Source: Hyalella azteca
Taxonomy: Eukaryota > Arthropoda > Malacostraca > Amphipoda > Hyalellidae
Length of the DNA: 64,000 nt
Direction of reading: 5' to 3'
NCBI RefSeq assembly: GCF_000764305.2
Contig: NW_025939179.1
Location: 27,335-91,334 of the forward strand
Shown here: positions 4,924 through 47,830 of the stretch, in pieces
Position numbering within the stretch: position 1 is the first letter of the stretch
Layout of the letters: the number at the start of each line of letters is the position of its first letter
Program-made: the position numbers and the translations under genes
The notes under the pieces: model-generated
What the model saw: only the letters and a program-made list of their open reading frames with translations
Database searches by the model: none
What the model was told of the DNA's origin: nothing

Positions 4924-6545
4924 ACTGCGTTCCAGTGGGCGAACCCTCTGAGCGGCAGACACCTGCGACGCCTGCGCCACGTCCTGCTGCAGGAGGTGCT
5001 GGTGAGTGGTGGTGGCTGGTGAGTGGTGGTGGCTGGTGAGTGGTGGTGGCTGGTGAGTGGTGGTGGCTGGTGAGTGGTGGTGGCTGGTGAGTGGTGGTGG
5101 CTGGTGAGTGGTGGTGGCTGGTGAGTGGTGGTGGCTGGTGAGTGGTGGTGGCTGGTGAGTGGTGGTGGCTGGTGAGTGGTGGTGGCTGGTGAGTGGTGGT
5201 GGCTGGTGAGTGGTGGTGGCTGGTGAGTGGTGGTGGCTGGTGAGTGGTGGTGGCTGGTGAGTGGTGGTGGCTGGTGAGTGGTGGTGGCTGGTGAGTGGTG
5301 GTGGCTGGTGAGTGGTGGTGGCTGGTGAGTGGTGGTGGCTGGTGAGTGGTGGTGGCTGGTGAGTGGTGGTGGCTGGTGAGTGGTGGTGGCTGGTGAGTGG
5401 TGGTGGCTGGTGAGTGGTGGTGGCTGGTGAGTGGTGGTGGCTGGTGAGTGGTGGTGGCTGGTGAGTGGTGGTGGCTGGTGAGTGGTGGTGGCTGGTGAGT
5501 GGTGGTGGCTGGTGAGTGGTGGTGGCTGGTGAGTGGTGGTGGCTGGTGAGTGGTGGTGGCTGGTGAGTGGTGGTGGCTGGTGAGTGGTGGTGGCTGGTGA
5601 GTGGTGGTGGCTGGTGAGTGGTGGTGGCTGGTGAGTGGTGGTGGCTGGTGAGTGGTGGTGGCTGGTGAGTGGTGGTGGCTGGTGAGTGGTGGTGGCTGGT
5701 GAGTGGTGGTGGCTGGTGAGTGGTGGTGGCTGGTGAGTGGTGGTGGCTGGTGAGTGGTGGTGGCTGGTGAGTGGTGGTGGCTGGTGAGTGGTGGTGGCTG
5801 GTGAGTGGTGGTGGCTGGTGAGTGGTGGTGGCTGGTGAGTGGTGGTGGCTGGTGAGTGGTGGTGGCTGGTGAGTGGTGGTGGCTGGTGAGTGGTGGTGGC
5901 TGGTGAGTGGTGGTGGCTGGTGAGGTGCTGGTGAGGGGTGGTGGCTGGTGAGTTCAGGCTGAGGCTGTGTTGACTGTATTGAGGCTGTGTGTGCAGGCTG
6001 AGGCTGTGTTGACTGTATTGAGGCTGTGTGTGCAGGCTGAGGCTGTGTTGACTGTATTGAGGCTGCGTGTGCAGGCTGAGGCTGTGTTGACTGTATTGAG
6101 GCTGTGTGTGCAGGCTGAGGCTGTGTTGAGGCTGTGCAGGCTGAGGCTGTGTTGACTATATAGTTGCTGTGTGTGCAGGCTGAGGCTGTGTTGAGGCTGT
6201 GCAGGCTGAGGCTGTGTTGACTGTATTGAGGCTGTGTGTGTGCAGGCTGAGGCAGCGGAGCAGGACGTGCTGAGGCAGCAGTATCAGCAGAAGGCCGCCG
6301 CCTCCCTGGCCCCGACCGCCGCCCAAATTCTCGACCAGGAACTCGAGAGCCTCCGAGGCCCGCCTCCGCCTCACCGTGGTTCCTCTGAGGCGCGCGTCCC
6401 TGACGGCGACGCTGCAGGAGGGGACGAGACGACGTCTGTGGTGACGCCCAGCGAGACGACGTCTGTGGTGACGCCCAGCGAGACGACGTCTGTGGTGACG
6501 TCCAGCGAGACGACGTCTGTGGTGACGCCCAGCGAGACGACGTGA
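4924..6545 (+). CDS. last two coding exons of an unrecognised gene
   Basis: Exon 4924-5001 (26 codons, phase 0 at both ends, starting TAFQWANPLSG, basic and helical) follows a TTTCGGGCAG acceptor and ends at a GTGAGT donor. Exon 6246-6545 (99 codons plus TGA) follows GTGTGTGTGCAG and continues in frame: an acidic/Gln helical stretch (AEAAEQDVLRQQYQQK), a Pro-rich linker, then a 9-residue repeat TTSVVTPSE about four and a half times up to the stop. I see coding-like composition, matching phases and good splice sites, but I do not recognise the family. Earlier exons were not found and may lie left of the window. The C-terminal repeat length is uncertain, because a misplaced copy at 15.6 kb has many more units. 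Confidence 0.6.
4996..5928 (+). repeat. 17-bp array of about 55 tandem splice donors
   Basis: About 55 almost perfect copies of GTGAGTGGTGGTGGCTG, starting at the authentic donor of the exon ending at 5001. Every unit contains CTG|GTGAGT, a consensus 5' splice site. The reverse strand reads as one long His/Pro/Ser/Thr repeat, which is an artefact of the array and not a protein. The array fills the 5' three quarters of the intron. Confidence 0.97.
5956..6245 (+). repeat. 39-bp array of tandem splice acceptors
   Basis: About six copies of a 39-bp unit plus shorter derivatives. Each contains TGTGTGTGCAG followed by GCTGAGG, that is, a 3' splice site and the first seven bases of the exon at 6246. 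Only the final copy continues into the real exon (GCTGAGGCAGCGG). It abuts the donor array with only about 25 bp of degenerate units between. Confidence 0.92.
6426..6542 (+). repeat. 27-bp coding minisatellite (9-residue repeat)
   Basis: About 4.4 copies of a 27-bp unit encoding TTSVVTPSE, ending exactly at the stop codon (ACGACG then TGA where other units have TCT). A longer version, about 11.6 copies, is misplaced at 15624-15938. Confidence 0.93.
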
Positions 6546-6717
6546 GGCAGCACTGCTCAGTAGCCTCCAGCGCCACAGTGTTTCCAACACCTGCTCAGAT
6601 TTTGAATTTAGTACGCGTTTGTCTTGAAATTACGACAAACATAACATACCTCCCGATATTAACATTCCTGCCGTTCCAGCATTCCTCCCGTCCCAGCATT
6701 CCTCCCAGCAAGGAACA

Positions 6718-6908
6718 GTTCACTACTAGTCATGGTCCAGCGAGGTGCCGTTCACTAGTCATGGCCCAGCGAGGTGCCGTTCACTAGTCATGGCCCAGCG
6801 AGGTGCCGTTCACTAGTCATGGCCCAGCGAGGTGCCGTTCACTAGTCATGGCCCAGCGAGGTGCCGTTCACTAGTCATGACCCAGCGAGGTGCTGTTCAC
6901 TAGTCATG
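6718..6908 (+). repeat. 29-bp array in the 3' untranslated region
   Basis: About six and a half copies of a 29-bp unit beginning GTTCACTAGTCATGG, starting some 170 bp after the stop at 6545 and ending before the polyadenylation signal at 7071. Confidence 0.95.
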
Positions 6909-12551: not shown

Positions 12552-12553
12552 TA

Positions 12554-21261
<8,708 letters not shown>

Positions 21262-21269
<8 letters not shown>

Positions 21270-21500
21270 CGTGGTGACCCTAGCGTGACATGGACTCTAG
21301 ATAACGTGGTGACCCTAGCGTGACATGGACTCTAGATAGCGTGGTGACCCTAGCGTGGCATGGACTCTAGATAACGTGGTGACCGTAGCGTGACATGGAC
21401 TCTAGATAACGTGGTGACCCTAGCGTGACATGGACTCTAGATAACGTGGTGACCCTAGCGTGACATGGACTCTAGATAACATGGCTGGTGACCCTAGCGT
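21262..21500 (+). repeat. 35-bp array starting at the Miro stop codon
   Basis: About seven copies of a 35-bp unit containing CTAGATAACGTGGTGACCC. The first copy includes the last two sense codons and the TAA stop of Miro (CCT AGA TAA), and the rest form the proximal 3' UTR. Identity between copies is very high, with single-base variants and one 4-base insertion. Confidence 0.95.
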
Positions 21501-21649
21501 GTCACGGCGACCTGCTGCGTTAAGTGAAGTCATCTGAGCGCTCAACGATTCTTCGCCCCGCACTGCCTCAGGGCTTCCGCACTCCTGGCCAGGGTTTCGG
21601 TTGTATTTTATTGTGTATATTGCAATTACGCCGCAATTTGGTTTACTCA

Positions 21650-27700: not shown

Positions 27701-30700
27701 ATCTCCTGTCCGTTTTTGTGTGATGGCGTCATCGGTATTCTGTTAGAGCGCGTCACCTCTTAACCGTGCATGAGTCGTGCACGCGTGACGTGATTGCTTC
27801 ATTATATCAACTCAAACTTACAAAGAGTTCAACTTTGTTTGTATAATTACTTATTTGGATATCCGTAATCCATTCATTTTATTGTAACTTTATTTCTGAC
27901 GCTCGTACGTTCAGAAATTATCAGTGCCCAGCATTGTCCTTTGAGCTTGGAAGAAGAGCTCGTGTTATCGTAGTTCCATTTACTGTTTGTTTCCATGAAG
28001 GTTTTCGGACAAACATGCCCCTTATAGTTAATATAGATGTTTTCTATTAAAAATGACACATTTTTTAGGAAAACTACGAAAGATGGTTAAACTCTCGAAA
28101 TACATCTTTAATGCGGAGCGCCATCACAGTCACCATTTTTGGAAATTATGAGCAAGTTTAATACTGATTATAATCTTTTCATAGTTTTGTAATTCCCAGA
28201 ATAATTTGTTGAGTAAATCCGCATACACTGAATAGAAGATGGTATTTATGTATGCTCGCCGTGCCAACGTTTCCGCGAAGTCAAGGCGCTGGCATGGGAC
28301 GCCAGAGTTCAATATGCTAGTAAAATCTGAGAACTTGAGAAGAGATCCGCAGCTAAAGTTTGGGGAAAATGATGTCACTATCCAGCATGCATTTGTTTCC
28401 ATGTGAATTAAAAGGTCCCGACATAAATAATTGTTGAAGCAATCGGCATTTCCTGCCATGCTGGACGTTGCGCTGCTGATGTAGATGGCAAGTTGTCGTA
28501 AAGCATTTCCTCTTTTATGATCGTCGTTCATGACAACATGATTATGAGTTGATCTTCAATACAACTCGAGATTAAATATTGAAACAACTCAAGTCAGGTC
28601 GTAAATTGAAGTTTCATCATGATTCAGCACCTCTTAAAAACTGCGTCAGCAGTTCCGTGCTTATATTAAATGAACATGTAACCATACATTTCTTTGAATG
28701 TTTTTATAATCGAGTTATAAATGGTAATGGAAGACGTTATAAGAGTGCAACTTTATAGGTTAGGACTTGACGCACTCGAGCTGACGCTCGCAGCGGCTGC
28801 GTTCGGCGGTGCGCGGCCCCGACAATGCCTGCGCCGCTGCGCCTAACGTTCCTCTGCGCGCGCCAATACTTCCCGCGGCGGCCTGTACACGAGCCACCAG
28901 CGTGTACACGCCGCGCCACCAGCGTGTACACGCTGCGCCACCAGCGTGTACACGCCGCGCCACCAGCGTGTACACGCTGCGCCACCAGCGTGTACACGCT
29001 GCGCCACCAGCGTGTACACGCTGCGCCACCAGCGTGTACACGCTGCGCCACCAGCGTGTACACGCTGCGCCTCCAGCGTGTACACGCAACTCACCACCGT
29101 CGTGTACACGCAACTCACCACCGTCTTGTACACGCCACTCGCCACTAGAGTGCGCACGCCACTCGCCACACAATAAGATGTGTGCAACAGACGGAGCGAG
29201 TGGCTGCAAGGGTCGCTGGCAATCTCACCTCCCACGTGACTGCCTCACTTGGACGCCTTCGCTCGTTTTTTTGAACGTATGAAATTGTTAAGACCTTCTC
29301 CTGATTTGCGTGAGAACTTGAGAGTAAACCGATCGCTTAGGGGATATTTCCAGAGTTTTTAACCAAAATAATAGCTAAGTGAAACGTTGTGACAACCTCC
29401 TTGGCACTGGCACGTGTCTCGCCGCAACTAACTAGCGGCAGTTGCGCAAGCATTCCAGCGGCTGTCGCTCCTCCAAATGCCTTGACGTGCGGGCAAGGCC
29501 GCGCTGCTGTTCTCATATGCTTGCTCCGTCTCAATGTTATCTGGTACGCTTGTGCAACCACCAACTCTGCTCCTCACCTGCTCAAGTCTAGAGCGCAGAG
29601 AATGATCTCCGTAGAGAATGTACAAATTACAGGTACAAATTGTTCAGATTGTACAGATTTGAGGAACGTTTAGCTCAGAAGCGGTTCTTGTAATAGGAAA
29701 GGAGTTAGTTGGTCCCGCACGCGCCCGGATGTCAGAAAATTTAGGAAATTCTCGTGCGTCCTGAGAATGACTTGCATGTTTCAAACGTGTTACTTCCTTG
29801 TTGAGATGCTGAAACCGAGGAGAATGAATCTCGTGGTGGTATTATTAAAATAAATTTCATCAGTGTGTTGATTAATATAAATAGGTATGTTAATAAATCA
29901 AATATGCTCATGATAACGTTTTCTTAGAAGATTCGTTGGTTTAAGAAAATAAATGCTCATTAAAAAATTACTAAGAGGAGTTAAAAAGTTCAAGATACAA
30001 CGTACCAAAAATATGGCTGTGCTGTGTTCATTTCTAATGTATATGCGTAATTATTGATTTTTTTATTAACGACTTGCATGAAGAATTGCATCGAAAGTAT
30101 GACATACCCGAGTCTGTATAAACTGATTATTAGCGCTTTGCCTAAATAGTCTTTTTCCTCACTACGCTCACATTTTGTAACAGTGAGTCCTTTTTAATTT
30201 TATGCCGGTGTCAGGCCTCCAAACTAATCGCGGTTTTGTTTGTTTGTTTTTTTCAGAAGCAACTCGTGGGCTCTAGTATTACGCCCGACAATTTCTTGAA
30301 TGTCGGCCTCTACTACACTCGCACTAAGGGCCTCTTCCGAGTGTGCTACCCCGAGGAATTACCCAATGGAGGTGAGATAATACAAATAAAAACTCATACT
30401 ATGCTGTAGAACGGTGATTACATTAGACCCTATCGCAAAAATTATCAACATTTATGTATAAATTAACACACTCGCCCCCACCACTTCGTCCCAAAAATGT
30501 TACCCAGTGGGTTATATTGCCGACAGCTGGGAACCACTGCTGTACAATATTGTCAAGGCCTTCGTGGTGCACGCAATGCTGCTTCGCGAGCAACCTTGTC
30601 TTGCCCCGCGTGATGACTATAACTATCGAGGCGCTTGGAAATCAAAGACCAAATGAATGGAGCTCGAACAAATGTATTGTGCTTTGTCGTGAGACCACTG

Positions 30701-33700
30701 AGAAGATTATGCCGAGCCCCGCTATAAGCCTTACATCAAGTTAAATAAGCGACCGGATGGCCGTAATTTACTACAAATCCACTGCAAAGGTTGCATGTCA
30801 GCTCATTGTCGGATGGGATGTTTTTTTTGTCGTGCGAGTTATGTTTTGGATGTCTTAGTCTGTTAGTTGCATGCTGTGGTCATTGCTGAAACCGCGTTAG
30901 GAATAAAGCTTTTCAACAATCGTGGTTTGCGTGGGCATTTCCGTTGGTTCAGTTGATGTCTGTGACGATAGGTCGTTAACTACAGATTGACATCCCTTGA
31001 GTTTTCTCTTCTAGAATTGATGATGCTCGATACCCAATATCAACTCTCAGACTGTAATGCAGGCCTTCAGCGCTCACCGTAAGAGAGGTCAAGACATGCT
31101 GAGACATATTTTCGTTTCTGGCACATAATTTATATCTGCTCTTTAATCAAAAATTGCAGGAATTTGTGCTTCGGTACTGTAGCTGCTTTTTATGCTTTAC
31201 CATTCTTGCAAATCACACAGTTGGAATGCAAAAGTGTTGGAACAATCATGCATTTGTGACCATTTCATTATATCGTTACCTACTACGAATTCATTGCCTG
31301 TTGTCCGTGCTAGCGCGAGTAGTGGCTGCCTGTGGTCTGCGAAGTAGTTCCGCTAGGCAGGCAAGCCCTACTAACTCTGCAGGAGTTAATAGTGAGGACA
31401 GCGGCAACTGACGATCAAAGACAAGAGGCATTCCTGAGCTGCGTATCCGCCTCGATGGTTCGCGTCGTGACCGCAGCGCGAACTGCCGCCGCTCGAGTCC
31501 ATGGCAAGCAAGACTTGGCCTAGTTTCTGCACTCGGCGCTACCGTGCGATACTTGCTCATCACAATAGCACTATTGTGTGGTGAGCTGTGACTCCTCCAT
31601 GTGGTGCTACCGTGCGATACTTGCTCATCACAATAGCACTATTGTGTGGTGAGCTGTGACTCCTTGCATGTGGCGCTACCGTGCGATGCTTGCTCATCAC
31701 AATAGCACTATTGTGTGGTGAGCTGACTCCTCCATGTGGTGCTACCGTGCGATACTTGCTCATCACAATAGCATAAGATAACATGTTCTGACTGAACATA
31801 ATTTTGAGACCTTGAGACCACGAAGACTAAGCGTGAAGTCTTATCACTGATTTGGGATGGAAAGATAATTGAAGAAGGTAATTTCTTAGAACACGGAAAG
31901 TAATTAGATGTTTCTACATTATTCTCATTGTGTCATTGCTCTTTAAATTAACGGATGGTTTCAATAATGCCGACTAAATCCCGTTCGAAACATTCGGCAC
32001 TTTTTATTCGACGTTCGCCACTTGTTTCTCAATGCTGGGTCCCACCAAAAACCTAAAGAACTTGGTTTTCAAGAACTGCAAGTGACCTGCAACACAGGCA
32101 GTCGGCTCAGCAGCAGAACCGTCATCGACGATCACGTCCACACGTGGCTTCTCTTGCAGCAATTCTGTAATATGTTATTATAATATTAGTTATGTCAGCT
32201 TTAAATTCGGCCATGTTTTCCTGTAGCCGATTCTTGACCACCTCGCCTCCTTGCCAATCAGATCAGAATTTTAACAACTGGTTTCGGGTCTTAAACCCGA
32301 TCTCTAAAAAAATCGGGCCTCAAGCAAAACTCACCTACATTTTTTCACGCTATCATCCAGGTTAGTACGCCGATATTATCACGTTGATCATTTTATACCA
32401 AATTATACATGCCATTCTTAGCGTTATTTTACACCACCATGTTTTCGATTTCCGAGTTCACGTTACCTTCCCTTCGACGAGAACCTTCTATGAATTTCAG
32501 GTTTTTTTCTGATTTAGAAGACTAGCACTAAAGGAAGTAAATGCGGCTTATTGTAAATTACCCTCGATGAACAGAATTACTTTGGGTTTTCGCACTAATT
32601 TTCAATACCTGCTTTGCGGAAGATTAGAGGTCATGTATACGTTGTAATGATTGAGTGACGTCACATTATAATCTCTCCAAGCAGCCAATCTTGCCTCTAG
32701 TAGTAGGCACTCCATTATCGCCAATTTTCCCTTTTTGCATCTTCAATATTTTCAGATTTTTCGTGCCCTTTTACTTTCCAATATTATTTTTTTTATAAAA
32801 ATGCCCATTCACTCGTAAAACATTCCACTGCGGGAGACTCCGACGCTGTCGTGCGCTACCCAGACACAGTTGGTCGGCCGATTATACGATATGCCAGCTG
32901 AGCTCGGCAGTCTTAAAAACCTTGTTTTTCGAATGTAGACACATTACTTCCTATCATGCTTAGTTCTTTTCGTTTCAAACTGTAAATTCACAGACAATAA
33001 TTATGCTCAACCTATTTAAAACCTTACTGCGATTTGGCGAGACTAGCATTTTAAATAAAGCCTTTCCTTTACCAGAATAGTGAAGAGATCTTAATAAAAG
33101 TCTTGTGACATTATTCGTGTAATTGCATGACTTTACTATACTTATTACCGCACTATTTCTGTGTGAACATAATACCTCGTTTCATTGATAATATGATATA
33201 ATACAATGCATTGTCTGCTGTTGTGAGGGCTCCACGTCCCATTGTTACTACCGCATGTGCCTTCCGCTGAGCGTCGCATGTCCGTTGCACGCTAACAAAG
33301 CATACACATGCAAGGCACGTTTGAAATTTATTTCCATGCACCGAATGTAGCGTTCTTATGTGTCGTTATCACCGACAAGCGAGCAGCATACATTTTGTAC
33401 TTTAACATTTAATTGAATGAGTTTTGATTGTGCTTGACTGAAAGATGCTACGTGGTCATCTATTTCATCACGCATTCTTAGAATGAGAACTACTCTGCTT
33501 TGAGTCATGCCGCAGTTCCTGTCATGCCACTATCTGCCAGTTCCTGTCATGCCACTATCTGCCAGTTCCTGTCATGCCACTATCTGCCAGTTCCTGTCAT
33601 GCCACTATCTGCCAGTTCCTGTCATGCCACTATCTGCCAGTTCCTGTCATGCCACTATCTGCCAGTTCCTGTCATGCCACTNCCTCACCCATGCTATGTA

Positions 33701-36700
33701 GGGTGACATCAGTTGCCTGCTACCTCACCCATGCTATGTAGGGTGACATCCTTTTCTCTGTACCCTCGTACACGCTCGCTATGTTCCCATCTAAGGTACG
33801 TAATCATGTTCATGTCTACCATTGATGTATGAGCTGGTCGAAGGATGTCTTCAACTCTCTAAACAATAAAATTTGGAAATAAATAATACTAACCGAGGGC
33901 ATTAATTTTTTAAATGACTGGAAAACAGCCTCCCAAGCCTGTAAGATATAACAAATTTAGGTTTAATGTTATTCGGTGAAGTCTGATTTTTCAACCCCTT
34001 GGCCGTCATTGCAAACCTGCCACAATTGTTTTAATTTTACTCTGTACTTCGTGAGAGCGCGACTGCCTGGCATTCATCAACAGGCCAACGAACCCAGTTA
34101 TTAGATTTTTTGCCGCCATAAACACTCATGATTATATATTCGTTGCTTTTTTCTGAAATTAATAACAGGCAAGTTTCAACTAGTCCAAGTCTGAACCTTT
34201 GTTCTACTAACTTCAATTAATGTGCCTTGTATGTCAAAACCCGGCCTAATGCAATGATTTCAAGGAATAGGTTTGCTTCTGACGTGTCACCGAGAATACT
34301 AATCATCTTGCTTAACAATTGAGAGTGATGATTTTCTTAAGTAGTTGCGTACATTATTTCGAATTGAACTATAATGGACTTGTCTTTATGAAACGAGAGC
34401 TGACGCGCTAAGTGAGTTCTATTTCTATTCATAAAAAGAAGCAACTTTTTTCAAGAGTTCTTGGTAGTTTTCTTGAAAGGCGCTATTGCTCAAGCCATTT
34501 ATAGAGCAGCACTGTGACTAGGAACGTTCTTGCTCTGTTCGGACTTTTCCATGGAGGCCACCTCATTACGGACCGTGAGTCGTCAGCGTCGCTCTCTTGC
34601 TGCTCGCTTTAACCTCGATCTTTGTAAACCGTGACGCAGCTCTGCCTTTGATAGCTCGCCCAACTCACAGGTGCTTCATCTTTGCGACTCTCCACCTCCC
34701 TAAACCTTACCCACCTTTCCTGCTTCGTCCTTTGCCCTTCAGCCCCCACAATCTCTCTCCTCCCTTGCTCCTCCTCCCCCCTCCTCAGGGCTACCCACAT
34801 TCCTGTGACCAGCCGACGTGTATACCTGCCTTCCGTCCTGCGGCCATGGCGTACCAGCCTTGTCTTACCACCTAATGATAGCGATCTCGTTAACCTGCAA
34901 TACCTTACCCTTAATACGGCATTCCGAGGAATGGGGCGCCATACTAACGAACTACCTTTGCTTGTATGCCTCTATCTTTTATTGAAATTTCAATAATTGT
35001 AATTATTACATAGATTGTTCCACAAGGACTTTTAATAAATGTGGAACGCATTCAAGGTGGCCGCCGCCGCTTCTAGAACGGCTTGCCTTGGCGGAGTGTG
35101 GGCAGTGAAATAATAGCTCGACCTCGCGCGCCGCTGAGACTAGAACTGCTGTGCCTCACGTCGCTGCAGAAATGACGCATAACCTTCAGTGTTGAACGTG
35201 TCTCATTTATGACGCGTAACATTCAGTGTTCAACGTGTCTCATTTATGACACGTAACATTCAGTGTTCAACGTGTCTCATTTATGACACGTAACATTCAG
35301 TGTTGAACGTGTCTCATTTATGACACGTAACATTCAGTGTTAAACGTGTCTCAATTATGACGCGTAATATTCAGTGTTGAAACTTGAACGTGTCTCATTT
35401 ATGACGCGTAACATTCAGTGTTGAACGTGTCTCATTGATGACTGCCGAGCGTTCCTGCCCGCCAAATGCTTGCTGAATAACAGTAAGAGTTGGGCACAAT
35501 GCTACACGAATAACAATTGAAATTACTCGTATAATCTTGAGGAAGCATCAATCATGTCAAGGAAGTTATATTTTCTCAATCGAATAGGCGTAGAATGAAG
35601 ATGAATTATAGAGTTGCGTCTTCAATGAGGTAGTGACCTTGCATTAACTTCTACGCTGTGTGTGAACTAATTCGGAAGCGGCAGACCTGACGCTTCCAAA
35701 ATTTTTATATCTTTTGCGTAATGGTTGAGTGAATGAATTCATAGAGTTAAGGTATAGAAAACCTGCACTAAATTATGAGCGTTGTTGAGTGTAGACGTAT
35801 AGCTGAGTCTTGCTTATCTCGGATGAGAGGCAAAAAGCGTTGCAAATTTTGTATCCATTAGTGCATATCATATTTGAATGGACTATTACTAATTAAATTC
35901 ATATGATCCTTTATTTCTTGGCCTCAATCGCTGCACTGGCTGTTAGTGCAGTGCACTCGCTGTTGGTGCAGTGCACTCGCTGCTGGTGCAGTGCACTCGC
36001 TGCTGGTGCAGTGCACTAGCTGTTGGTGCAGTGCACTCGCTGCTGGTGCAGTGCACTCGCTGCTGGTGCAGTGTACTCGCTACTGGTGCAGTGCACTCGC
36101 TGCTGGTGCAGTTTCTTTCGAGAAAGTGCACATTCTGTGGCAGCGAGCGTCTGTTGAGCGCGCCTCATCTACCGCAGTCACTTTCACCCTCACTTCTGCG
36201 CACAACAACGGAAGTTGCTTGTGTCCAATGGCACATTTCGAACACAGCGCGGTGTGTTACTGGAGTCTGGAGTCGAAATATTTTATAAGATTATTTCCTT
36301 TCAGGTGTCATATTTGAAGTTGTCTTCAGCTAAGAGATAGATGCGTTTTATTGACTTATTCTCGTTTTACATTCTTTTTCGTTGATTTATTTTCCACTAA
36401 TTAGGTACGTACATTGAGTGTTTCAAATTTTTTATAACGTCGTGATGTTCAGCGCAAAAGTTTAATCGACATTTTGCTTCCAAAAACTCGTATACAAGAG
36501 AATAAAATGTTAATTTCCTTATTGTAAGACGGATGTTGCGCAGGTCCTGTGCAGAGTGATTACCAGTCGCTTGTTGCTTAAGTAATCGTACAGAGTGTGC
36601 CTTTGCTTGTGCGGAGGTACTGTACCTGTCGCCTGGTACCAAAGTGATCTTATAATGTGCCTCTTACCTGCGCAGAGCGACTGTACCTGTCGCCTGGTAC

Positions 36701-39700
36701 CAAACTAATCTTATAATGTGCCTCTTACCTGCGCAGAGCGACTGTACGTCTGTCGCCTGATACCAAAGTGATCTTATAATGTGCCTCTTACCTGCGCAGA
36801 GCGACTGTACCTGTCGCCTGGTACCAAAGTAATCTTATAATGTGCCTCTTACCTGCGCAGAGCGACTGTACGTCTGTCGCCTGATACCAAAGTGATCTTA
36901 TAATGTGCCTCTTACCTACGCAGAGCGACTGTACCTGTCGCCTGGTACCAAAGTAATCGTATAATGTACGTCTTACCTGCGCAGAGCGACTGTACGTCTG
37001 TCGCCTGGTACCAAAGTAATCGTATAATGTACCTCTTACCTGCGCAGAGCGACTGTACCTGTCGCCCGTGGAGACGCAGTGCCAGAACATCGACTACCAC
37101 ATCTTCGACGAGGACAGCGACGTCACGAGCTTCAGCGACGACGAGATGGCAAGACTACGTGAGTAGAGAAACTCATAAGACGTGTTAAGCTCGTCAGTTT
37201 TCCGTATGGCTTATTTTGTTGCAAACCAAATGACGTTAGGTAGTTATGACGTCGCTATTATTGAGAAAACGCTCAATTTACGTTTTCTTAATAGAATTTG
37301 CAAGCTAGTGTGAATATATGAATTACTTAATTTCTACTTCTGATTTTTCACTATAAGAGCTTATTAGGTTGAGGATATTTTATATCTAAATGCAACTACT
37401 TGCCTGCTTATAATGAAGCTCCTCTCCGATTTATTGATTTAAAGTTTGGGTTCATGTTTATCACAGTTCTCGGATGGCAGGCACATCCGTAAGATCTCCT
37501 TATTTTTCGTTTATATGTATTTTCTGCTCCTGTTAACACAAAACTCGCATCCCTCAAATAGAAAAATATATCTTATTAACAGTGTAATAAAGAGTTTTCT
37601 ATTAGTAATAATGAGTATATATGTTTGCAATTGTTTTTCATCGTATGACTCAACATGTGAGTTCAGAATTGCATAATTTCACTATAAGCTGCCAAGTTAA
37701 GCGTTGTGGCTATGATAACATCAATGTCTCTAAGCGTCTTGTGCACCGATAGCCTGTTCAGCATACAGTTATTAAAGGCCTATTACATGATATTATGGTA
37801 ACTCTTATTAATAATTAATCTTTGGGACCAAAATTGCATATCGTTAAGATTCCAATTGCCATTCAAATTTCAATTGTTCGAAAAATATCGGTTGAATTCT
37901 CGTCTAAGTCAATCCCTGTACCACACTCATCTCAATATCTACTGCTGCTATAATGTCACCAAATAGCGGCAGTCTTGTGTGCTACTTTGCTCCTGTTGTA
38001 CTTATGTACAACATACAACACCTGTACTGTGACTTGAATGTATAAGCTCATCACTCGTAAGGCGCATGCCTGCAGTGTGGCAGTCTTGCCATGAACGGTC
38101 TTCCTCAACCAACAAAACGTAGCGCGATTCTAACCTCTTCTCCACGATCGACCTCGCTGCATTGAGCAAGAAGGGAGCTTTGCTTGAAAGTACTGCAGCA
38201 ATGAACTGGGTTGGTACAGGTGGTTACTGTCAGAAAGTGAAGTACTGCAGCAATGAACTGGGTTGGTACAGGTGGTTACTGTCAGAAAGTGAAGTACTGC
38301 AGCAATGAACTGGGTTGGTACAGGTGGTTACTGTCAGAAAGTGAAGTACTGCAGCAATGAACTGGGTTGGTACAGGTGGTTACTGTCAGAAAGTGAAGTA
38401 CTGCAGCAATGAACTGGGTTGGTACAGGTGGTTACTGTCAGAAAGTGAAGTACTGCAGCAATGAACTGGGTTGGTACAGGTGGTTACTGTCAGAAAGTGA
38501 AGTACTGCAGCAAGGGACTGGGTTGGTACAGGTGGTTACTGTCAGAAAGTGAAGTACTGCAGCAAGGGACTGGGCTGCTCCAAAGGTTTATGCCGAAAGT
38601 AACGTAACGAACAGGTTCGGCGCCTGCCCCTCAGTTCAGCAAAAAGTTGAAGCACTGTTGCTTCCTGCGTGGCGGTGCTCGTGCCGCTGGATATCCACCG
38701 TGTGAAGCATGCGGTGACCCCACCGCTGCACTGATATCCACCGTGTGAAGCATGCGGTGACCCCACCGCTGCACTGATATCCACCGTGTGAAGCTTGCCA
38801 CCACTGCACTGATGAACATTACAAGCCTGTATAGAAGCTTCCACTCAATTAACTTATTATATGAAGTTTACTCCTGTGGATCGTTCGATTTTACGAGGTT
38901 CAAACGAGTTGAAATAAAGCATTTAGCGTCTGTTCAACCCGGGCTTTTGTGTGTTGGTCACTGATTAATTAAATTAACCACTGATGAAGGATACGACAAG
39001 TTTTCGAACAATTCTAACTAACAAATAATAAAGACCTCACGCCACCCAATCAGTAAAATACAAAAATCTAACTTCACTTCGCGGTCAGAAAAACAGAATA
39101 CAGAACTGACGTATGAATTGTTTTGGGGTTTTAATTCTGTAGAATAATGACGTGCGCGTATTTTAATCCGAAAATTGCGAGAGACAACGTGCTGAGTAAG
39201 ACGAAGGAAACCTTCAATGCTGAGGGAGACTTCGGGGGCAACCTTCAGTGCTGAGGGAGACTTCGGGGGCAACCTTCAGTGCTGAGGGAGACTTCAGGCC
39301 AACATTCCAAGAAAATTTTTAATTAAACGCCAAGTGTCGGTAAATTTACTTCGTTGGTAGAGGCAATAGTTCTGTTCTATAAGCATTGCTTGTGAAGATA
39401 ACAATTTTTGCCCACTTTACACTATAGTTTAATCGTGTTGGAAGGGTTATAAAGCTTACAACAGTTTGTTGCTCGTCCCGGAACGATCCTGAAATGCGAG
39501 TGGCATACCTCCACTTAACTAAAAATAACGTAATTTGCTCAATATTTCTCTTCGGAAAACTTGAGGAGACAACGAAAAATTACGTTGAAGTCATAAACAT
39601 TACTCCGATTCTGATCAAAGCATAAATCCTTTTATTCGGAGTATAGCGTAGAGGTTATCGTATCTAAAGTGTAAAATTTAGGTAATTTAGACCTGATCGA

Positions 39701-42700
39701 TCTTCTAGTAGAGAACTGAACAAATGGTCGAAGCCCTCAGAAACCCCATTCTGCATTCAACTTCTTAGTGGTTGAAAAAAAAATTGAAGATCACTTGTCC
39801 ATCGCTTACATGCGATGAGTTACAGTGGTTACCCATGGACACCACGATGAATAACCTGAACTTTGTTGCATAGATAGTGGTCTACATTTAACGCAAAAAT
39901 ATTCATGTTTAGCTTTCCCTATCTATTGTATTTCTGATTAATAATTGAAATTGCCGGAGCTAAATTTTTATTTATTACTATGTAATTTTCTATCCGGGAG
40001 AAACCATCGCAATTTTGAATTCTCTAAAAGTAGCAGGAGACGAGTCGAATACACCCAGTCTCGCCTGCCACCTCTGGACGACACTTTCTACTGTAGCCGC
40101 CATAGCGGCCGGTGCTCCGCTTCTAGGTCGTTTGAAAGGCCGTCTCTTAGCGCTTCTTGATCGCTTCCTTGTACGTCTAGATCGGTGTATGTTAGTCCCG
40201 CATTTCTCTGATCGGTGTATGTTAGTCCCGCATTTCTCTGATCGGTGTATGTTAGTCCCGCATTTCTCTGATCGAGAGTGGACATACCACCTGAGCAGGT
40301 GTAGGCAGGTGAGTGGACATACCACCTGAGCAGGTGTAGGCAGGTGAGTGGACATACCAGCCGAACTTGTGTACCAGGAACAGCCAACTTGATCGTGCAA
40401 GAGAGCGCCACGGAGGCCGTGTTTTTCATCGCTAGTGAGCCAAGACAGCGGTGGAGACGCTATCTCTTGTATAGCTGCCGAGGTCTGTGACCTCAAGAAT
40501 ATAAGTGGCGGCCGCTGCTACAGCCGCGGACATAGGCTTGGTTCGGTTCCTGCAGAACTTAGAGGTTATAATCGTCGCTTACTTGTCAGCTATGGCATGG
40601 GTACAAACGAGACTATAAGAATACAACTTGCTGTATGTGTAGAATTTACTGAATTTTTTTCCACGTCGTATTTCTACAACAATTGGCCTTTATTGTGCAG
40701 TCGCAAATTCGTCGTTATCGTCGCGAGCTCTCAGAGCAACATTATAGCGGGCCCCACCTTATTTGCTAGATTTGTTTCTGTTGGTTGATAAGCTTGTGCG
40801 CCTCGTGTAAATCGCACACCAGTTCCATATTCAGGTTATTCAGAACACGCGGCAGGCCTACGAGCGTTGTGGCGAGCATTCCTTTTGTTCGTCTACTTGT
40901 TCAACTTAATGATAGAACGAGTACAACCTGGTCTTGAATCGTCCGTTTGTTGACCTACTGATGCAAATAATGGATAATTTGAGAAAAATTTGGACTTTAG
41001 TCGTTCTTTTTTTTAATTACTGGTGCAAATAATGGATAATTTGAAAGAAAAATTGAACTTGAATTGTTCTTTTGTTGAACTACTGGCGCAAATAATGGAT
41101 AATTTGAGAAAAATTTGGACTTGAATTGTTCTTTTGTTGAACTACTGGTGCAAATAATGGATAATTTAAAAAAATTCACTTGAGTCGTTCTTTTGTTGAA
41201 CTACTGATGTAAATAATGGATAATTTGAAAAAAAATTGGACTTGAGTCGTTCTTTTGTTGAATTAACTAGAGGTGCAAGCGATGGACAATAAGAGGCCAA
41301 CTTGACAACCTGGAATCAATTTTCAAAGTCTGCACGATGCTGTTACGGGGTCGCATTTTTCTGCGCGTTACTTCAATGCTTGAAATTTCAAAGAGCAATT
41401 TTAGTTTCTTCACTGCATGCACTGAGCTTCACTCAGCGATTGATGCCAGTATCACAATCGAGCTTAACTTATGAGCTTCTCATCGAATTCGTGAATTGCT
41501 CGGTTGAAGAATATCGTCTGTCACCGTTCTTATGTTGTTATATCACAAACACCTCTTGAGTCATGAGTTAGTGAAAGTCTCATTTTTTTATAATTTCTCG
41601 TAGACAGTAAAAGTAGTAACTGGATAACTATTATCCTATCGCGTGTTTTTCGTTGCATTCTACTGAACTTAATGTAATATTCTCTTGAGGCGAAAGATCA
41701 CAAAATTTAGTCAAAGCTTTAATAAATGAGAAAACCTCTAGCAATACTAAAATAATCTTCCACAACTTGGAACAATTTGAATAAAGTTTGGGGGCCTCGA
41801 CTAGCTTTTTCGCTGCCCCTTGCAAATGGCCTCAACACTTGTCATGGTGGAGAAATGCTCAACATTAATCCGCATTACGTGAAGGTTGATCTTACAGACC
41901 GTTTGCTCCTGTACAGCAGGAATGGCTCAATAAAATGCTGTACTCGCAAAGTACTGAATTTTAAATTTGTCATTACAGGAAATTCATTTTAGATGAAAGG
42001 ATGTGGCACTGTACAATGTGAATAGTATTTTTTATTTCGAGAAAGACTGCTTAGACATCCATGAGATTCCTCGCTGATATACTTCAGAGAAACGTGTCCC
42101 AGGCTGAGGCCGAAGCCTCGCCCTATCTGCTGGAGATCACGCAGTCGTATATATCGCCGTGGCCCCCACAGTGAGGTGGTGAACTCGCTTCACGGCGCTT
42201 GCAATTTGCTTTCGAACCTCTCCCATGCTGTTTAGATAAGATAATCTAAAGCCACGTTGATTACCATCATTATTGGAGACTTTAATGTTTTTTAGGTTAA
42301 TCCCTGGTAACGATTGATCACTCATGTGCAGACATGGCGAGGTCGATGATCGCAATGTTCATCGTATCGTTCTTCTTCGTGTTTGTGATAAGATAATCTA
42401 AAGCCACGTTGATTACCATCATTATTGGAGACTTTAATGTTTGTTAGGTTAATCCCTGGTAACATTTGATCACTCATGTGCAGACATGGCGAGGTCGATG
42501 ATCGCACTGTTCATCGTATCGTTCTTCTTCGTGTTTGTGGCGTTCTTCACGGGCGTGGCGGGCTGCTGGCGCCGCTCCCCTGGCAACGTCGCATCCACCG
42601 CCATCCTCATGCTCCTGTCCTGTGAGTGGCATTACACCATAACGAAGTTGTAAAGGAATTTCTTACGTTTTATGAAATATATTGAATAACCAATGTTTCT

Positions 42701-45700
42701 AAATATTTTCTGACAATTGATTGTTTCTTTGTTACGAAAACAAATGATATTCGTGGCTGAGCGGCGATTGCTGTAATGTGACATTCGTTTTGCGATAAAC
42801 TTACACAGATGCTACCAGCATTACTACTTTAGGTGCACTTTGTACTCAATTTGCGAAAACTTGAACCTATTTCGATATTTTCAATTCGGGAAATGTCTGC
42901 TCAACTGTAATTGAATATTAGACTTTATTTATTTTGAGTGTATAAGTGAAAATTGTAGATATGGTTGACTTGTCTCTGCTCAACTGTAATTGAATATTAG
43001 ATTTTATTTATTTTGAGTGCATATTTGAAAATTGTAGATAGGGTTGACTTGTCTCCCAGACAAGTTTGGCGCAGTAACTATAATAGTGGTGCAGTAGTGT
43101 AATGTTCGGTAGGTAGTGTAGTGGTGCAGTAGTGCAGCAGTGCAGTAGTGCAGCAGTGCAGTAGTGTAGCAGTGCAGCAGTGCAGTACAGTAGCAGTGCA
43201 GTAGCAGTGCAGTACAGTAGCAGTGCAGTAGCAGTGCAGTACAACAGCTCGTGGTCCCCAGGCCTGTTCGCGGCGGGGGGCATGGGGCTGTGGCACGGCG
43301 TCGAGTACTACGAGGAGGAGCGCATCAGGACGGCGCCCTTCCGAGGCTCCTGGGACGATGTGAGTTAATATAGTTACGTGTGCTTAGCCACACTTACATG
43401 CGCCTTAGCCACACTTACATGCTGCTTAGCCACACTTACATGCTGCTTAGCCACACTTACATGCGCCTTAGCCACACTTACATGCTCCTTAGCCACACTT
43501 ACATGCTACCTTAGCTACACTTACATGCGCCTTAGCCACACTTACATGCTGCTTAGCCACACTTACATGCTCCTTAGCTACACTTACATGCGCCTTAGCC
43601 ACATTTACATGCTCCTTAGCTACACTTACATGCGCCTTAGCCACACTTACATGCTCCTTAGCTACACTTACATGCTCCTTAGCCACACTTACATGCTCCT
43701 TAGCCACACTTATATGCACACTTACAGCCATCAGTTCTATAAGTGAAGCTAAATTCATTTGCTGCTCTGTGCAATCATGCAATATGTGTGCCTTTTTTAT
43801 TTTTTTAAGCGCCAGCTCGTTCTGACAACACACGAGCGTTAAGCCATTACTTTTGAGTAGCAACAATTAAAACGATGTAATATGAAGACCTCGGCCAATA
43901 CTTTCAGCTGTGACCTCGGCCAATACTTTAAGTTTTATTTCAAGGTGTTTTAATTCTAATAAATAAATAAGCGGCTTGGGAACGTCGCGTCAGTGGACGG
44001 AATCGACGACGTCGCAGGTAGCAGTTCTCCCACAGATCGAGACAGTCGTCCCCAGGTGCAGTTGTGGCGTACAAGTTCTACGCCTTCTTGACAAGCCGGA
44101 GCACGTCTACATATTCTTATTTTAATCACATAATTGTAAAACGGGAATGCAAATTTATGTACAGCATTCCTAAGACAGCCACAAGTTGCCTTTGTAAACA
44201 AGACCATGTCTTATGAATTGGTCCTTGCTGAAGCTCGTCCCTGCTGCAGCAACTTTATACTCACCAAACCTTGTCTTTTATTTGCCATGCTTCTTGTGAT
44301 CGCTTGTGGTCCTCGTGTTTAGACGGGACCTTAGACGAAACTAACTTCACCTCTACAGTAATAGATTGCCGGCGCCATCTCGGCATGTGCAGGCTGTTCT
44401 GCGCTACGTATCTCGAGAATAGTTTTCAAGCTCGCCATTTGATTTCCGTTCATTTTCCTGCAGAGCTCAACATTATCTATTCGTTTATTTTTGACGCAAT
44501 CCTATCTCTCCTTCATCTCTCCTTCAAAGAAGCACTCTTCATCAGTTCCTGTTGCCTTCCCCTTAGAACATCTAGAATATGCATGTTATTTTTTATTGAG
44601 ACTTCTGACCTAATTGATTAATTTATCAACCTTTTAGTAAAAGAAGCTGATGAAATAGCCCAAATCCTCCATTCACGAAGAAGCAACGAATTCGTTCGTT
44701 CATGTAGTTCTTCAACTGATCGTAATGATTCCTTCGTAGCATATATTCATACTCATTATAGTTCTTGATGATGCAATAAAGTAATTTATGCGTCAATTCA
44801 TTATAAAGTACTACTGTAGCGCTTATATTTTTGCGTATAAAAATACCCACTCTTCTGCTGTGTTGGACGAGGCGACACTCTAACTCCTGCACCTATAAAA
44901 TATGATTAATTTGCACTAATAATTATGTAACGTCAGATGCTGGAGAATTCTACGCATATTTGGTACGACTGGTCGTACATGCTGGCGTGGGTGGGCTCAG
45001 GCATGGCATTGCTGTCATTCTGCCTCTTCCTAGGAGCGTCCCAGTGCATGCAGTCTGAGTACCGCAAGGAACAGAGCAAACAGATGCAGTACATGATGCC
45101 AGGTACTGAGCAAACACATACAGTACATTGTGCTACTGTGCCCAGTACATGTACCTCGTGCTTCTTACGCCACGCCAGTAATCGCACAAAATAATTCTCT
45201 TTCTCACTGGGCTCCACGAACACAGCTACGAGCCTGCTCCTCCACAGCTACATAATATTATATTTAATGCTTTCTAACAAATTTTGTACAGGCATGCACT
45301 ATGTTAGCTGTCACTGCATGGCAATAACTAACATCTTGAAGTGCGTGTGTGTATATATAGTGTGGTCTGTGTAGTGTAAACTGTGCAGGGAATTTTATCG
45401 GAAGTATTTTTAATTACATCGGTTATGCCCACAGATTATCCTTCATTTCTTATATAATCAATTGCCTTTAGATGACTCTTCACTAATGGTTCAATTCCGT
45501 GGGTTTAGCCCCTGAACCTCAAACGTCTTTTGACCAGCAACTTGTGAGGTTCTCTAACCTCGCTCAATAATGCGAGGTGTGACTCATGGTGACCGCGATT
45601 AATCACATCGAAGTTGTACTATAACTTGCATTTATTATTCTGCTCATTATTCTCTGATGTGACCATCTCTTCTTTATATAATTATTTAAGCTTTGGGTTA

Positions 45701-47702
45701 CGTGTCACATCCTATATCATAAATGAATTATTTCATATCCTAAACCTTCGTTTATTATATTCTCAAATTTTGAAAACTGATGACTTTTGCTCAAAATAAG
45801 GCTTCTGTCCAAGACCTTATAGCCTTATACTTACGACTCTACGACTGAAACACAAACGTTGTAGCCTCTCTTGATTTAATCGCTGTTCACGAGACCGTTG
45901 GTATGATTATGCGTTCGTAGCAAAATTTTACTCTAGCTTACTTATTTTTCACATCTTTCATATAACCTTCAATTCACACGCGCGCTGTAAAGCGAGGTAA
46001 CTCCTTTAATTGTACCTAACTAACCAATGAGCCTGGGAGCTACGTACATCTGTCGCCTCTTGTAGCCTCTCGCGCTCAGGAGGGCAGTCGGCCAGACGTG
46101 CAGCGCTTTTTCTTATCTATGACAGTCACCAACTGAGGCTCACTGCGCTGTAGTGATATTGTCCTCAATGATAGCCACTAACTGAGGCTCACTGCGCTGG
46201 TGATAATATTTTTACAGCTATTGGTGTCCGGGACGATCAGCGTGTACGACTGGTCGTACTTCCTCGCCTGGATTGGTGTTGGCTGGGCACTGATTTCGAC
46301 CCTCCTCTTCTTTGGGGCCTCGGTTTGCTTACGTAGCGAGGGTGAACTCGAGGATAAGAACATGGCCTATATCATGCCGGGTAAAGCTTCACACGCGTCT
46401 ACACATTAACTCCTACTTTAGCTCGAACATTTCTCTAAGTATATAAGCTCACTGCAGCCAGTAGATGGTTAGCTAACTGCACGTAGAGACCTTTGTTCTC
46501 ATGCTTCAGTAACTACTTGATTAACCGATTAACCATCACACGATCACACGAGGTTATTAACCTGATCACTAGCGTGTTGGTGTGCTTCAACTAACACTAG
46601 CTTTTTTTAATATATGGTTTAATTTTAATGCTTAATCATCAAATCTTTGTATTATTGTTGCATTTGTCTGGAGATTTATGTGTTGAGTTCTGACTAACAG
46701 TTTAATTTATCGTATTTTTTTTGTACTTAATCCTCGCAATATTTGAATATATTGTTGTGCAATCGAAATAATATCATTTTTGTTCACTTCAGAGTCAGCC
46801 CATATGTTCGTTTGTGTCTGCATATTAATTATGCATAGAATTATTCGCCTATGTAAAACACGTATCTATTTCACATCCATTGAGTTAAATATTGGAGCAT
46901 TGAGCAACGTGATCGAGTGCTCGATGGATGCCAGGCCCAGGGTGTCCGTCCCCATTTCACTTGTCCGCTTTTCAAACTAGATTCACGTCTGAATGTTAAG
47001 CGGATGTATCGTTTGGAGCGCAACTGAGTGTCAAGTTCAAGGTTTATATTCAGTTGCGAATACTAATCAAAGAGATTAATAGGAAACCCCAGTAGCGTTT
47101 CATGATCGCTCATCCTGACCAGCAAACTGTTGCACATTAGATCACTTAAGCCTGCAGCGTCCTTCACCCGTTTGAAATAGAGTCGAGTTGAGTGCAGCAG
47201 ACAAACTTATATTTCAATCTAGAATCTTAGTTGTGAACTCTGTCATTCTCATGTCTTAGAATCAATAATCGTTGACATGATCACTCCTGATGGTTTACAC
47301 CAAATGGAACTTATCTCACTTCTCTATTTTTTGAACGTTTTATTCATATGACGATCTCATTATCAGTAAAATTAACGCTTCGATATTAGAAATTTCTTTT
47401 ATTTTAACCCTGCATAACTTAACTGATCAAATTCATCAAGATATTAACGAGCGTATGGGCTAGCCAGAAGTTGATAGAGCAAATTATTAGAAGTTATTCT
47501 CCTAGCACTCTGAAATATTAGTTTCGTAAGGCAGAACTATAAGGAACTTTTTAGCGTTTCATCATAAATTTCCCGCTAATGTGATGATGTGTTGGCAGTG
47601 TACCCGCAGAAGCAGCAGTACCCCACCTACGGGTACGGGTACCCCCCACCGGCCGCGTACCAGTACGCCACGTCCCCCCAGTACGGTCACTACAACTACT
47701 GA
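24742..47702 (+). CDS. four-span PMP22/claudin-like membrane protein
   Basis: Exons: A 24742-24867, B 30257-30371, C 37048-37158, D 42484-42621, E 43262-43359, then either F 44937-45102 or F' 46218-46380, then G 47599-47702. They join in frame to 285 (F) or 284 (F') residues. Membrane spans fall at about 6-28, 122-145, 152-176 and 209-234. The long first extracellular loop carries the claudin-type GLF..C motif (GLFRVC, 67-72) and a second cysteine (92), the pair that stabilises the loop in the PMP22/claudin/gamma-subunit superfamily. The cytoplasmic tail (252-285) is rich in Tyr, Pro and Gln and ends GHYNY. Such proteins act at cell contacts or as channel partners. The exact role here is unknown. 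The exon structure and strong conservation-like GC bias make it a real gene. Introns A-B, B-C and C-D are 5.3-6.7 kb. Confidence 0.87.
25840..26025. repeat. dispersed repeat, copy 2
   Basis: Partner of 23697-23868 in the same orientation, about 2.1 kb away across the first exon of the claudin-like gene. It is slightly longer than copy 1 because of short insertions (for example ATAGGTA). Confidence 0.75.
26275..26436. repeat. about 80-bp tandem duplication
   Basis: Two copies sharing ACTTTAAAATGTTCTCTG and ending in GTTTACGTATAATTTAAGTT. The second lacks a short ATGAGA segment. Confidence 0.9.
27413..27478. repeat. 66-bp zero-spacer palindrome
   Basis: Centred on GAG|CTC between 27445 and 27446. 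All 26 inner base pairs match (arm TGGAGGTATGATGAG against CTCATCATACCTCCA and beyond). Past one mismatch at 27419/27472, six more pairs match. It immediately precedes the 24-bp array at 27480. Confidence 0.93.
27480..27645. repeat. 24-bp tandem array
   Basis: About seven copies containing GATCATCCCTCTTGCTGTGG. Open frames across it are repeat artefacts (24 is a multiple of three). Confidence 0.95.
28885..29165. repeat. 22-bp tandem array, GTGTACACGC core
   Basis: About twelve copies of a unit containing the palindrome GTGTACAC and GCGCCACCAGC, with diverged copies at the right end. All six frames stay open through it and give false Cys/His/Arg-rich proteins. It lies in intron A-B, 1.1 kb before exon B. 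Confidence 0.95.
31532..31775. repeat. about 62-bp tandem array with internal hairpin
   Basis: Four copies of a unit containing GCTACCGTGCGATACTTGCT and CACAATAGCACTATTGTG, the latter an 8-bp stem with a 2-base loop. The last copy is truncated. Confidence 0.93.
33516..33750. repeat. 25-bp array, gap base and 37-bp duplication
   Basis: About six and a half copies of a unit containing GTTCCTGTCATGCCACTATC up to 33681, an N at 33682, then two copies of CCTCACCCATGCTATGTAGG plus GTGACATC. The N marks an unresolved repeat, so copy number is unreliable. Confidence 0.93.
35165..35445. repeat. 36-bp tandem array
   Basis: About seven copies of a unit containing ACATTCAGTGTT and AACGTGTCTCATTTATGAC, with one 8-bp insertion near 35380. 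Confidence 0.94.
35930..36112. repeat. 20-bp tandem array, TGCAGTGCACTCGCTGCTGG
   Basis: About nine copies. The unit contains the palindrome TGCAGTGCAC in part, and translated frames are artefacts. Confidence 0.95.
36600..37065 (+). repeat. 61-63-bp array containing exon C acceptor
   Basis: About seven and a half copies, each with CTCTTACCTGCGCAG followed by AGCGACTGTACCTGTCGCC. That is the polypyrimidine/acceptor of exon C plus its first 18-19 coding bases. Only the final copy continues into the true exon (CGTGGAGACGCAG) at 37048. In the upstream copies the frame reaches a TAA within about 20 codons. Confidence 0.95.
38189..38572. repeat. 52-bp tandem array
   Basis: About seven and a half virtually identical copies of a unit containing AGTACTGCAGCAATGAACTG and TACAGGTGGTTACTGTCAG. 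The last two copies carry CAAGGGACTG instead. Confidence 0.96.
38692..38800. repeat. 43-bp tandem repeat
   Basis: Two and a half copies of a unit containing GATATCCACCGTGTGAAGC. Confidence 0.92.
39208..39297. repeat. 32-bp tandem repeat
   Basis: Three copies of a unit containing GTGCTGAGGGAGACTTCGGG. Confidence 0.92.
40183..40360. repeat. adjacent 30-bp and 35-bp tandem repeats
   Basis: Three copies of a 30-bp unit (GATCGGTGTATGTTAGTCCC and ten more bases) are followed at 40276 by two and a half copies of a 35-bp unit containing GTGGACATACCACCTGAGCA. Confidence 0.93.
40915..41275. repeat. about 60-bp tandem array
   Basis: Six diverged copies sharing AATAATGGATAATTTGA and GTTCTTTTGTTGAACTACTG. 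The greater divergence suggests an older array than its neighbours. Confidence 0.92.
42235..42538 (+). repeat. 152-bp duplication of exon D acceptor and exon start
   Basis: Two copies (42235 and 42387). Each contains the intron end, the acceptor CTCATGTGCAG and the first 54-57 bases of exon D, differing at only a few bases. The second copy is continuous with the real exon. In the first, the exon-like piece runs back into intron sequence and meets an in-frame TAA. Confidence 0.95.
42895..43060 (+). repeat. about 83-bp duplication in intron D-E
   Basis: Two copies of a unit containing CTGCTCAACTGTAATTGAAT and ending in GGTTGACTTGTCTC. Confidence 0.92.
43090..43250 (+). repeat. GCAGTA/GCAGCA-rich array before exon E acceptor
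   Basis: Irregular repeats of GCAGTAGCAGTGCAGTACA-type units rich in CAG acceptor-like triplets, ending about 12 bp before the true acceptor GTCCCCAG (43261). Confidence 0.85.
43380..43728 (+). repeat. about 21-bp array after exon E donor
   Basis: About sixteen copies of CTTAGCCACACTTACATGCT with one or two variable bases, beginning about 20 bp after the donor at 43360. On the minus strand each unit contains GCATGTAAGTGTGG, a donor-like site pointing the wrong way. Confidence 0.95.
44937..45102 (+). CDS. claudin-like gene exon F (fourth membrane span, version 1)
   Basis: Fifty-five codons plus one base, acceptor GTAACGTCAG, donor CCAG|GTACTG. It begins MLENSTHIWYDWSY, then a membrane span, then the start of the cytoplasmic tail ending QYMMP. 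It enters at phase 0 and leaves at phase 1, exactly like F' (46218). About half of aligned residues are identical to F', including YDWSY, LAW, FxGAS and a conserved Cys. The pyrimidine tract is weak compared with that of F', so inclusion may be regulated. Confidence 0.85.
46120..46205 (+). repeat. about 45-bp duplication before exon F' acceptor
   Basis: Two copies sharing CTGAGGCTCACTGCGCTG, the second running into TGATAATATTTTTACAG, the F' acceptor. Confidence 0.85.
46218..46380 (+). CDS. claudin-like gene exon F' (fourth membrane span, version 2)
   Basis: Fifty-four codons plus one base, acceptor ATTTTTACAG, donor CCGG|GTAAAG. It begins LLVSGTISVYDWSYFLAW and ends YIMP. It shares phases, length and motifs with exon F and so encodes an alternative fourth membrane span and proximal tail. 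If both exons were included, F' would be read one frame off and terminate at a TAG (46334-46336), so a productive transcript must choose one. Confidence 0.85.
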
Positions 47703-47733
47703 TGGCCGTACCACGCAGGGCATTGCTGTGCCG

Positions 47734-47830
47734 ACTACTGACCGCTACAGCAGTCATGGTAGTGGCAACTACTGACCGCTGCAGCAGTCATGGTAGTGGC
47801 AACTACTGACCGCAGCACCACTCATGGCAG
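47734..47830 (+). repeat. 34-bp repeat copying the claudin-like stop codon region
   Basis: ACTACTGA, the last codons and stop of the claudin-like gene (47695-47702), recurs at 47734, 47768 and 47802 with period 34 in units containing GCAGCAGTCATGGTAGTGGC. The array begins about 30 bp after the stop, in the 3' UTR. Confidence 0.88.

Follow-up and report, generated by a model that had tools for sequence, protein, structure and literature searches.

In the amphipod Hyalella azteca, minisatellite arrays straddle splice sites, and these border-spanning arrays are real. In the window, by which we mean the whole 64,000-nucleotide stretch of DNA that was analysed, the two supported genes have 38 splice sites, of which arrays cross five and miss 33. 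We consider it probable (roughly 0.68) that these are 'mirage'-type arrays in a minisatellite-rich amphipod genome, of which the border-spanning ones are kept as their outermost copy still works. Whether exon borders are overlapped more often than by chance depends on the counting unit: by array coverage there is no excess, and by duplication event there is a modest one.

Arrays were found with Tandem Repeats Finder (TRF) and set against protein-supported gene models. TRF gave 71 rows for the window, which merged into 47 arrays with a period of at least 7 covering 14.0% of it. The first supported gene (13443..21269, plus strand) encodes Miro, the mitochondrial Rho GTPase, in 13 coding exons separated by 12 introns. 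Over 650 aa, the translation built from these exons matches the Hyalella azteca record for mitochondrial Rho GTPase 1 at 100% identity, and it carries the Pfam domains EF_assoc_1, EF_assoc_2 and Ras; a GC-AG intron is present at 16114 (donor CCCCAG/gcaagt). The second is a claudin-family gene (24742..47702, plus strand, Pfam Claudin_2) with eight coding exons (24742-24867, 30257-30371, 37048-37158, 42484-42621, 43262-43359, 44937-45102, 46218-46380 and 47599-47702), whose product matches Hyalella LOC108666125 isoform X2 (P0121). Its exons 44937-45102 and 46218-46380 resemble each other as alternative exons and are likely mutually exclusive, P0121 having the 46218-46380 type and the database protein P0122 the 44937-45102 type. 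Putative gene 1 (4924-6545) matched nothing in Pfam, and a protein search at E 0.01, covering proteins of about 69-219 aa, gave no homolog; its splice sites at 5002 and 6245 are therefore putative. Minus-strand open frames of 367-576 codons run over the 17-bp array of this region (window 4850-6594) with no sign of being genes, and a cuticle protein gene with chitin-binding domains (PF00379, two stretches) lies on the minus strand at about 50000-53060.

The crossed sites are the donors 16840, 19106 and 19704 and the acceptors ending at 37047 and 42483, all backed by database proteins and all on the plus strand. At donor 16840, a 65-bp array of 3.1 copies (16789..16992) reaches 51 bp into the exon, and its first copy is the one used according to the database Miro protein. 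On the acceptor side of this 336-bp intron (16840-17175), a 46-bp array of 3.3 copies (17021..17171) ends 4 bp short of acceptor 17175 without crossing it, and together the two arrays make up 91% of the intron. Donor 19106 lies in a 31/32-bp array of 2.5 copies (19089..19167, 17 bp exonic), in which a decoy donor at 19138 scores equal to the functional one. The 21-bp array of 5.9 copies across donor 19704 (19695..19817, 9 bp exonic) has ATCTACTTG as its functional unit and ATCTGCTTG as its remaining copies, and the residues ARIYL of the database Miro protein come from the first unit. Acceptor 37047 is crossed by a 61/124-bp array (36619..37066, 19 bp exonic) with upstream decoy acceptors of about equal score, and acceptor 42483 by a 152-bp duplication of 2.0 copies (42235..42539, 56 bp exonic), of which the downstream copy is used. 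The presence of MIALF and NGE-RLYLSP in P0121 shows that splicing at 42483 and 37047 takes the exon-proximal copy. Four of these sites (19106, 19704, 37047 and 42483) have decoys whose scores resemble that of the functional site.

These five sites sustain the core of the first-pass annotation, which had placed eight splice sites within array units. Two of its other three fall outside, 17175 by the 4 bp mentioned above and the putative acceptor 6245 by 29 bp past the last TRF array (39-bp and related arrays, 5943..6216), where the motif carries on by eye. The third, donor 5002, does lie inside a 17-bp array of 56 copies (4998..5953), in a gene that is itself putative; arrays occupy 96% of its intron 5002-6245. 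It was also claimed that arrays abut or copy all three stop codons. The Miro stop (21267-21269) is indeed inside the first unit of a 35-bp array of 6.9 copies (21258..21501), and in gene 1 a 27-bp (9-codon) in-frame array in the putative coding sequence (6425..6543) extends as far as the first base of the stop. The claudin-family stop (47700-47702) lies outside the 34-bp array of 2.8 copies 3' of it (47734..47827). All of these arrays are likewise on the plus strand.

Because the window had been chosen for the pattern, the kinesin genes, the sole sample not picked for it, provide the fair figure. A domain search listed 141 kinesin-motor fragments, from which the 20 loci with several close fragments were taken with repeats disregarded; here, 121 merged arrays cover 18,425 of 185,020 bases (10.0%). 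The domain exons served to train a gene finder, which was run on these 20 loci and nine short ones (29 loci, 214,276 bases). Because ab initio exons were noisy within arrays, junctions were also solved directly between neighbouring kinesin-domain fragments. This gave 39 introns, of which 34, judged by eye as reading through, were kept. The five dropped by hand (L048 twice, L049, L008 and L050) had a join that was not kinesin-like by eye, and two of them carried the solver's array-spanning flag; L045 was shifted by hand to the second-best join and L038 was retained despite a length mismatch excluded by the solver. Eight arrays cross the kinesin junctions, namely at a donor and an acceptor in L033, at donors in L036, L037 and L047, and at acceptors in L038 (one) and L045 (two), and border-spanning arrays are consequently not peculiar to the window. 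In L032 a 36-bp array (4264-4387, gene strand) stops short of a kinesin acceptor by about 2 bp. Over both sets, 13 of the 106 supported junctions lie in arrays (13 crossing arrays, 53 introns; the gene-1 array excluded), at seven donors and six acceptors.

The first-pass annotation knew of no described system of this kind. Such a system is in fact documented from amphioxus (PMC3087553, PMC3902484): tandem repeats lie over intron-exon borders of the Adh, globin, TnC and PGBD5 genes, go by the name 'mirages' in the first three, have unit lengths of 10-160 bp and are described as leaving splicing intact. In Adh, globin (BflGb6 and BflGb9), TnC and PGBD5 as in Hyalella, units span the border at donors and acceptors alike, splice signals occur in many copies, and the genuine border is used, here according to the database proteins. 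Judging by decoy scores and these proteins, the Hyalella decoys look usable and yet appear to be passed over. Unlike the amphioxus mirages, the Hyalella arrays are in an arthropod host, also lie over one stop codon and reach 56 copies in putative gene 1.

Three further known systems were compared. Intron gain by AGGT duplication, as described for ATP2A1, potato RdRp and fission yeast (PMC4974935), shares tandem duplication with splice signals inside genes; unlike there, the Hyalella intron ends carry different repeats (65 and 46 bp), the protein is unchanged and no new intron was observed. Accordingly, at intron 16840-17175 no single duplicated exon segment provides both splice sites. Border repeats are also common to human segmentally duplicated genes, where variable internal tandem repeats at exon-intron boundaries may make introns (PMC2812944); unlike that case of recent paralogs, no change of gene product was seen with the Hyalella arrays. 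Introner elements place a repeated sequence inside introns. A search for dispersed copies of this type with one array, the 65-bp array, matched one place in 519 Mb, the size of the assembly, with simple repeats and very common words skipped. Among the literature matches listed, titles and abstract openings including the Hyalella genome literature contained no report of border-spanning minisatellites in crustaceans.

The way in which the arrays sit on the borders bears on their origin. In all 14 crossing arrays (one in putative gene 1) less than one period is exonic and the breakpoint is 4-56 bp within the exon, so the earlier description of the landmark copy as outermost is borne out, as is that of unrelated units of several lengths. 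The conclusion that the arrays grew away from the exon does not follow: any other outcome would alter the protein, and the outward direction is therefore uninformative on the origin of growth. Nor do the breakpoints agree with a process repeatedly starting at exon borders. If growth began by nicking or priming at the splice site, the offset should be constant; the observed offsets are scattered, the exonic share of the unit in 13 arrays ranging from 0.14 to 0.78 (mean 0.40; KS against uniform, P = 0.12), which argues against a start at the border itself. Units may also differ between the donor and the acceptor side of a single intron, as in 16840-17175 and in L033 (periods of 72 and 64 bp, respectively). 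Divergence is no greater in crossing arrays than in the other intronic ones (copy match 92.2% versus 89.4%, P = 0.26), and a comparison of border copy and inner copies in five window arrays gave no consistent difference in homogenisation. Among five exon-internal array calls, several of them in doubtful exon calls, three have a period divisible by 3.

By coverage, borders are not enriched. In the window 6 of 40 splice sites lie in arrays against 5.5 expected (P = 0.45), on a list that includes gene 1, lacks 30256 and 30372, wrongly has 24772 as an acceptor and has three sites 1-9 bp off, with no faulty entry counted as a match. In the kinesin loci this holds for 14 of 161 gene-finder edges against 14.5 expected (P = 0.60) and, with array-blind models, for 13 of 156 against 13.9 (P = 0.63); an earlier gene-finder run had 15 of 150 edges in arrays at 9.8% coverage. 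Uniform coverage was rejected as the sole null and both counts are given, duplication events of one unit each being the fairer count because arrays grow on the intron side only. In the event null, each array was collapsed to one unit and placed at random within its own intron, a conservative version using longer units. Under this null, 8 of 26 kinesin arrays cross against 3.0 expected (simulated P = 0.005; conservative 4.3, P = 0.04), for which Poisson values are P = 0.012 (expected 3.0) or 0.07 (expected 4.3). The window has 5 of 28 against 2.2 (P = 0.04) or 3.0 (P = 0.15), and both sets together have 13 of 54 against 5.2 (P = 0.0002) or 7.3 (P = 0.015). A locus-wide version for kinesin gave 12 of 161 gene-finder edges crossed against 3.5 or 5.6 expected, and 9 of 76 solved edges against 2.0 or 3.3.

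Other counts are weaker. The predicted enrichment of array edges within 20 bp of a border appears in the window (6 against 2.3 expected, P = 0.03) and in the kinesin loci (13 against 7.6, P = 0.04) and fades with the array-blind gene finder (10 against 7.2, P = 0.18). An excess at borders, as the first-pass annotation supposed, is present to a modest degree by duplication event and absent by coverage. Kinesin exons without a domain anchor show 3 crossings against 2.7 expected (conservative 4.3) with array-blind models and 5 against 3.0 (conservative 4.7) with full models. A stricter first filter on adjacent gene-finder exons left 1 of 36 edges crossed against 0.9-1.4 expected, a count that is biased low because array-rich introns were lost where the gene finder had put false exons in arrays. 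The median period is 72 in crossing arrays and 27 in the others; this is expected, since a long unit is more likely to reach over a border, and the null takes unit length into account. An exon-avoiding placement null (P of 0.018 or below) was not relied on, as it forbids what selection does allow. GC-rich seeding is not the cause in the kinesin loci (array GC 0.38, noncoding 0.37) and possibly has a part in the window (0.49 versus 0.41). Gene 1 was left out of the intron-conditioned simulation and of the divergence and decoy counts and included in the 40-site list, the locus-wide null and the 14-array list. A genuine bias towards borders, two- to three-fold in size, may exist but is unproven.

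From the anatomy of the arrays, the array load, the use of the exon-proximal copy in database proteins and the scattered breakpoints, we infer a selection filter acting on a general mutational process. Tandem duplications of about 15-150 bp would arise genome-wide by replication slippage or template switching, followed by unequal exchange, and by chance a duplicated unit would straddle a donor, an acceptor or a stop. Provided that the exon-proximal splice site or stop is used, the mRNA would be unchanged, and further copies would fall in the intron or 3'UTR, hidden from the protein and free to multiply, while out-of-frame lengthening of coding sequence would be removed by selection. Such a filter would yield outermost functional copies, unrelated units, arrays at donors and acceptors, and seemingly intronward arrays. 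It is favoured by the occurrence of splice sites in arrays at the coverage rate, by the unlike units at two intron ends and the scattered exonic share, by the use of the exon-proximal copy and the amphioxus anatomy with intact splicing, and by the tandem-repeat load of 6.18% in another amphipod genome, that of Trinorchestia (PMC7062882). Counting against it are the excess of crossings by event, the similar divergence of crossing arrays, which leaves longer persistence no obvious explanation of that excess, the weak test of an in-frame filter by three of five exon-internal periods, and an exclusion of the border copy from homogenisation that is not clearly seen.

The modest border excess may reflect either survivorship or a hot spot. 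Survivorship would be an add-on to the selection filter: border arrays accumulate at an ordinary rate of origin, as exon flanks are old and free of recent transposons and a simple deletion cannot erase an array that holds the functional copy. It agrees with the modest crossing excess and with the array density in the kinesin loci, which falls from 1.0-1.4 per kb in the first 50 bp next to predicted exons to 0.52-0.73 at 50-200 bp and 0.43-0.56 beyond 200 bp. Crossing arrays are not older by copy divergence, however, and we regard survivorship as possible while leaning against it.

The same divergence figures mildly favour the other alternative, in which tandem duplication is two to three times as frequent at exon borders, for example through transcription-tied nicks, R-loops or stalled forks near exons. 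In favour of a hot spot are the event-null excess in both samples, the locus-wide counts on gene-finder and solved edges, and the high density within 50 bp of exons. Coverage, however, shows no excess in the window or the kinesin loci, unanchored exons show little or none, the 36-edge filter, itself biased low, gives none, and the kinesin Poisson P values are only 0.012-0.07. The density has already dropped at 50-200 bp, that of non-crossing arrays is just mildly raised near the borders of verified introns, and the breakpoints are spread inside exons. A mechanism of this type is in our judgement unlikely, and the broader statement that minisatellite birth in Hyalella azteca is raised two- to three-fold at exon borders, with about one in eight splice junctions inside arrays, is doubtful.

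In the Rogers model, introns are gained when exon segments containing AGGT are duplicated in tandem, and the arrays would be the young introns. This model would suit the two introns that consist almost wholly of array (5002-6245 and 16840-17175), and is very improbable since donor- and acceptor-side units differ in both, so that no single duplication supplied both sites.

The assembly does bear traces of misjoining. The window and the 29 loci contain 11 N runs, 8 of them no more than 5 bp from an array, and four back-to-back Nextera mosaic-end pairs, untrimmed mate-pair junctions, were left in the assembly: one in the window, which L001 repeats, one in L041 (3739-3776) and two in L049 (5346-5383 and 5425-5462). 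The one in the window opens an assembly artefact in a Miro intron (15553..15939), in which head-to-head mosaic ends are followed by a copy of the gene-1 27-bp array and a single N. This artefact contains a duplicated piece of the 6383-6543 region, and the distance to its partner, 9.2 kb upstream, looks like mate-pair spacing. The array has 11.3 copies there and 4.4 at 6425, a difference that is artefactual or allelic. The artefact array (15634-15938) was left out of the crossing-array, intron-null and divergence counts and is inside the 14.0% coverage, the window coverage null and the locus-wide nulls. Array copy numbers are hence unreliable, and the existence of the arrays is much less doubtful: that they are assembly products as such is highly unlikely given the scattered variants among copies, the shortness of many arrays and the high tandem-repeat content of another amphipod. 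The misstatement of array-rich loci by short-read assemblies nevertheless stands as a warning.

A pattern reported, as far as we found, only in amphioxus now extends to an arthropod with a large array load. With 13 of 106 junctions in arrays, several of them with decoys of equal score, Hyalella azteca offers a natural experiment on splice choice among near-identical sites and on intron lengthening. Should the excess at borders prove to hold across the genome, gene structure and tandem duplication would seem to be linked. If exon borders are indeed hot spots of duplication, the spliceosome must routinely pick the outermost of several equally strong sites, and this genome would lend itself to natural tests of how splice sites are chosen and how introns grow.
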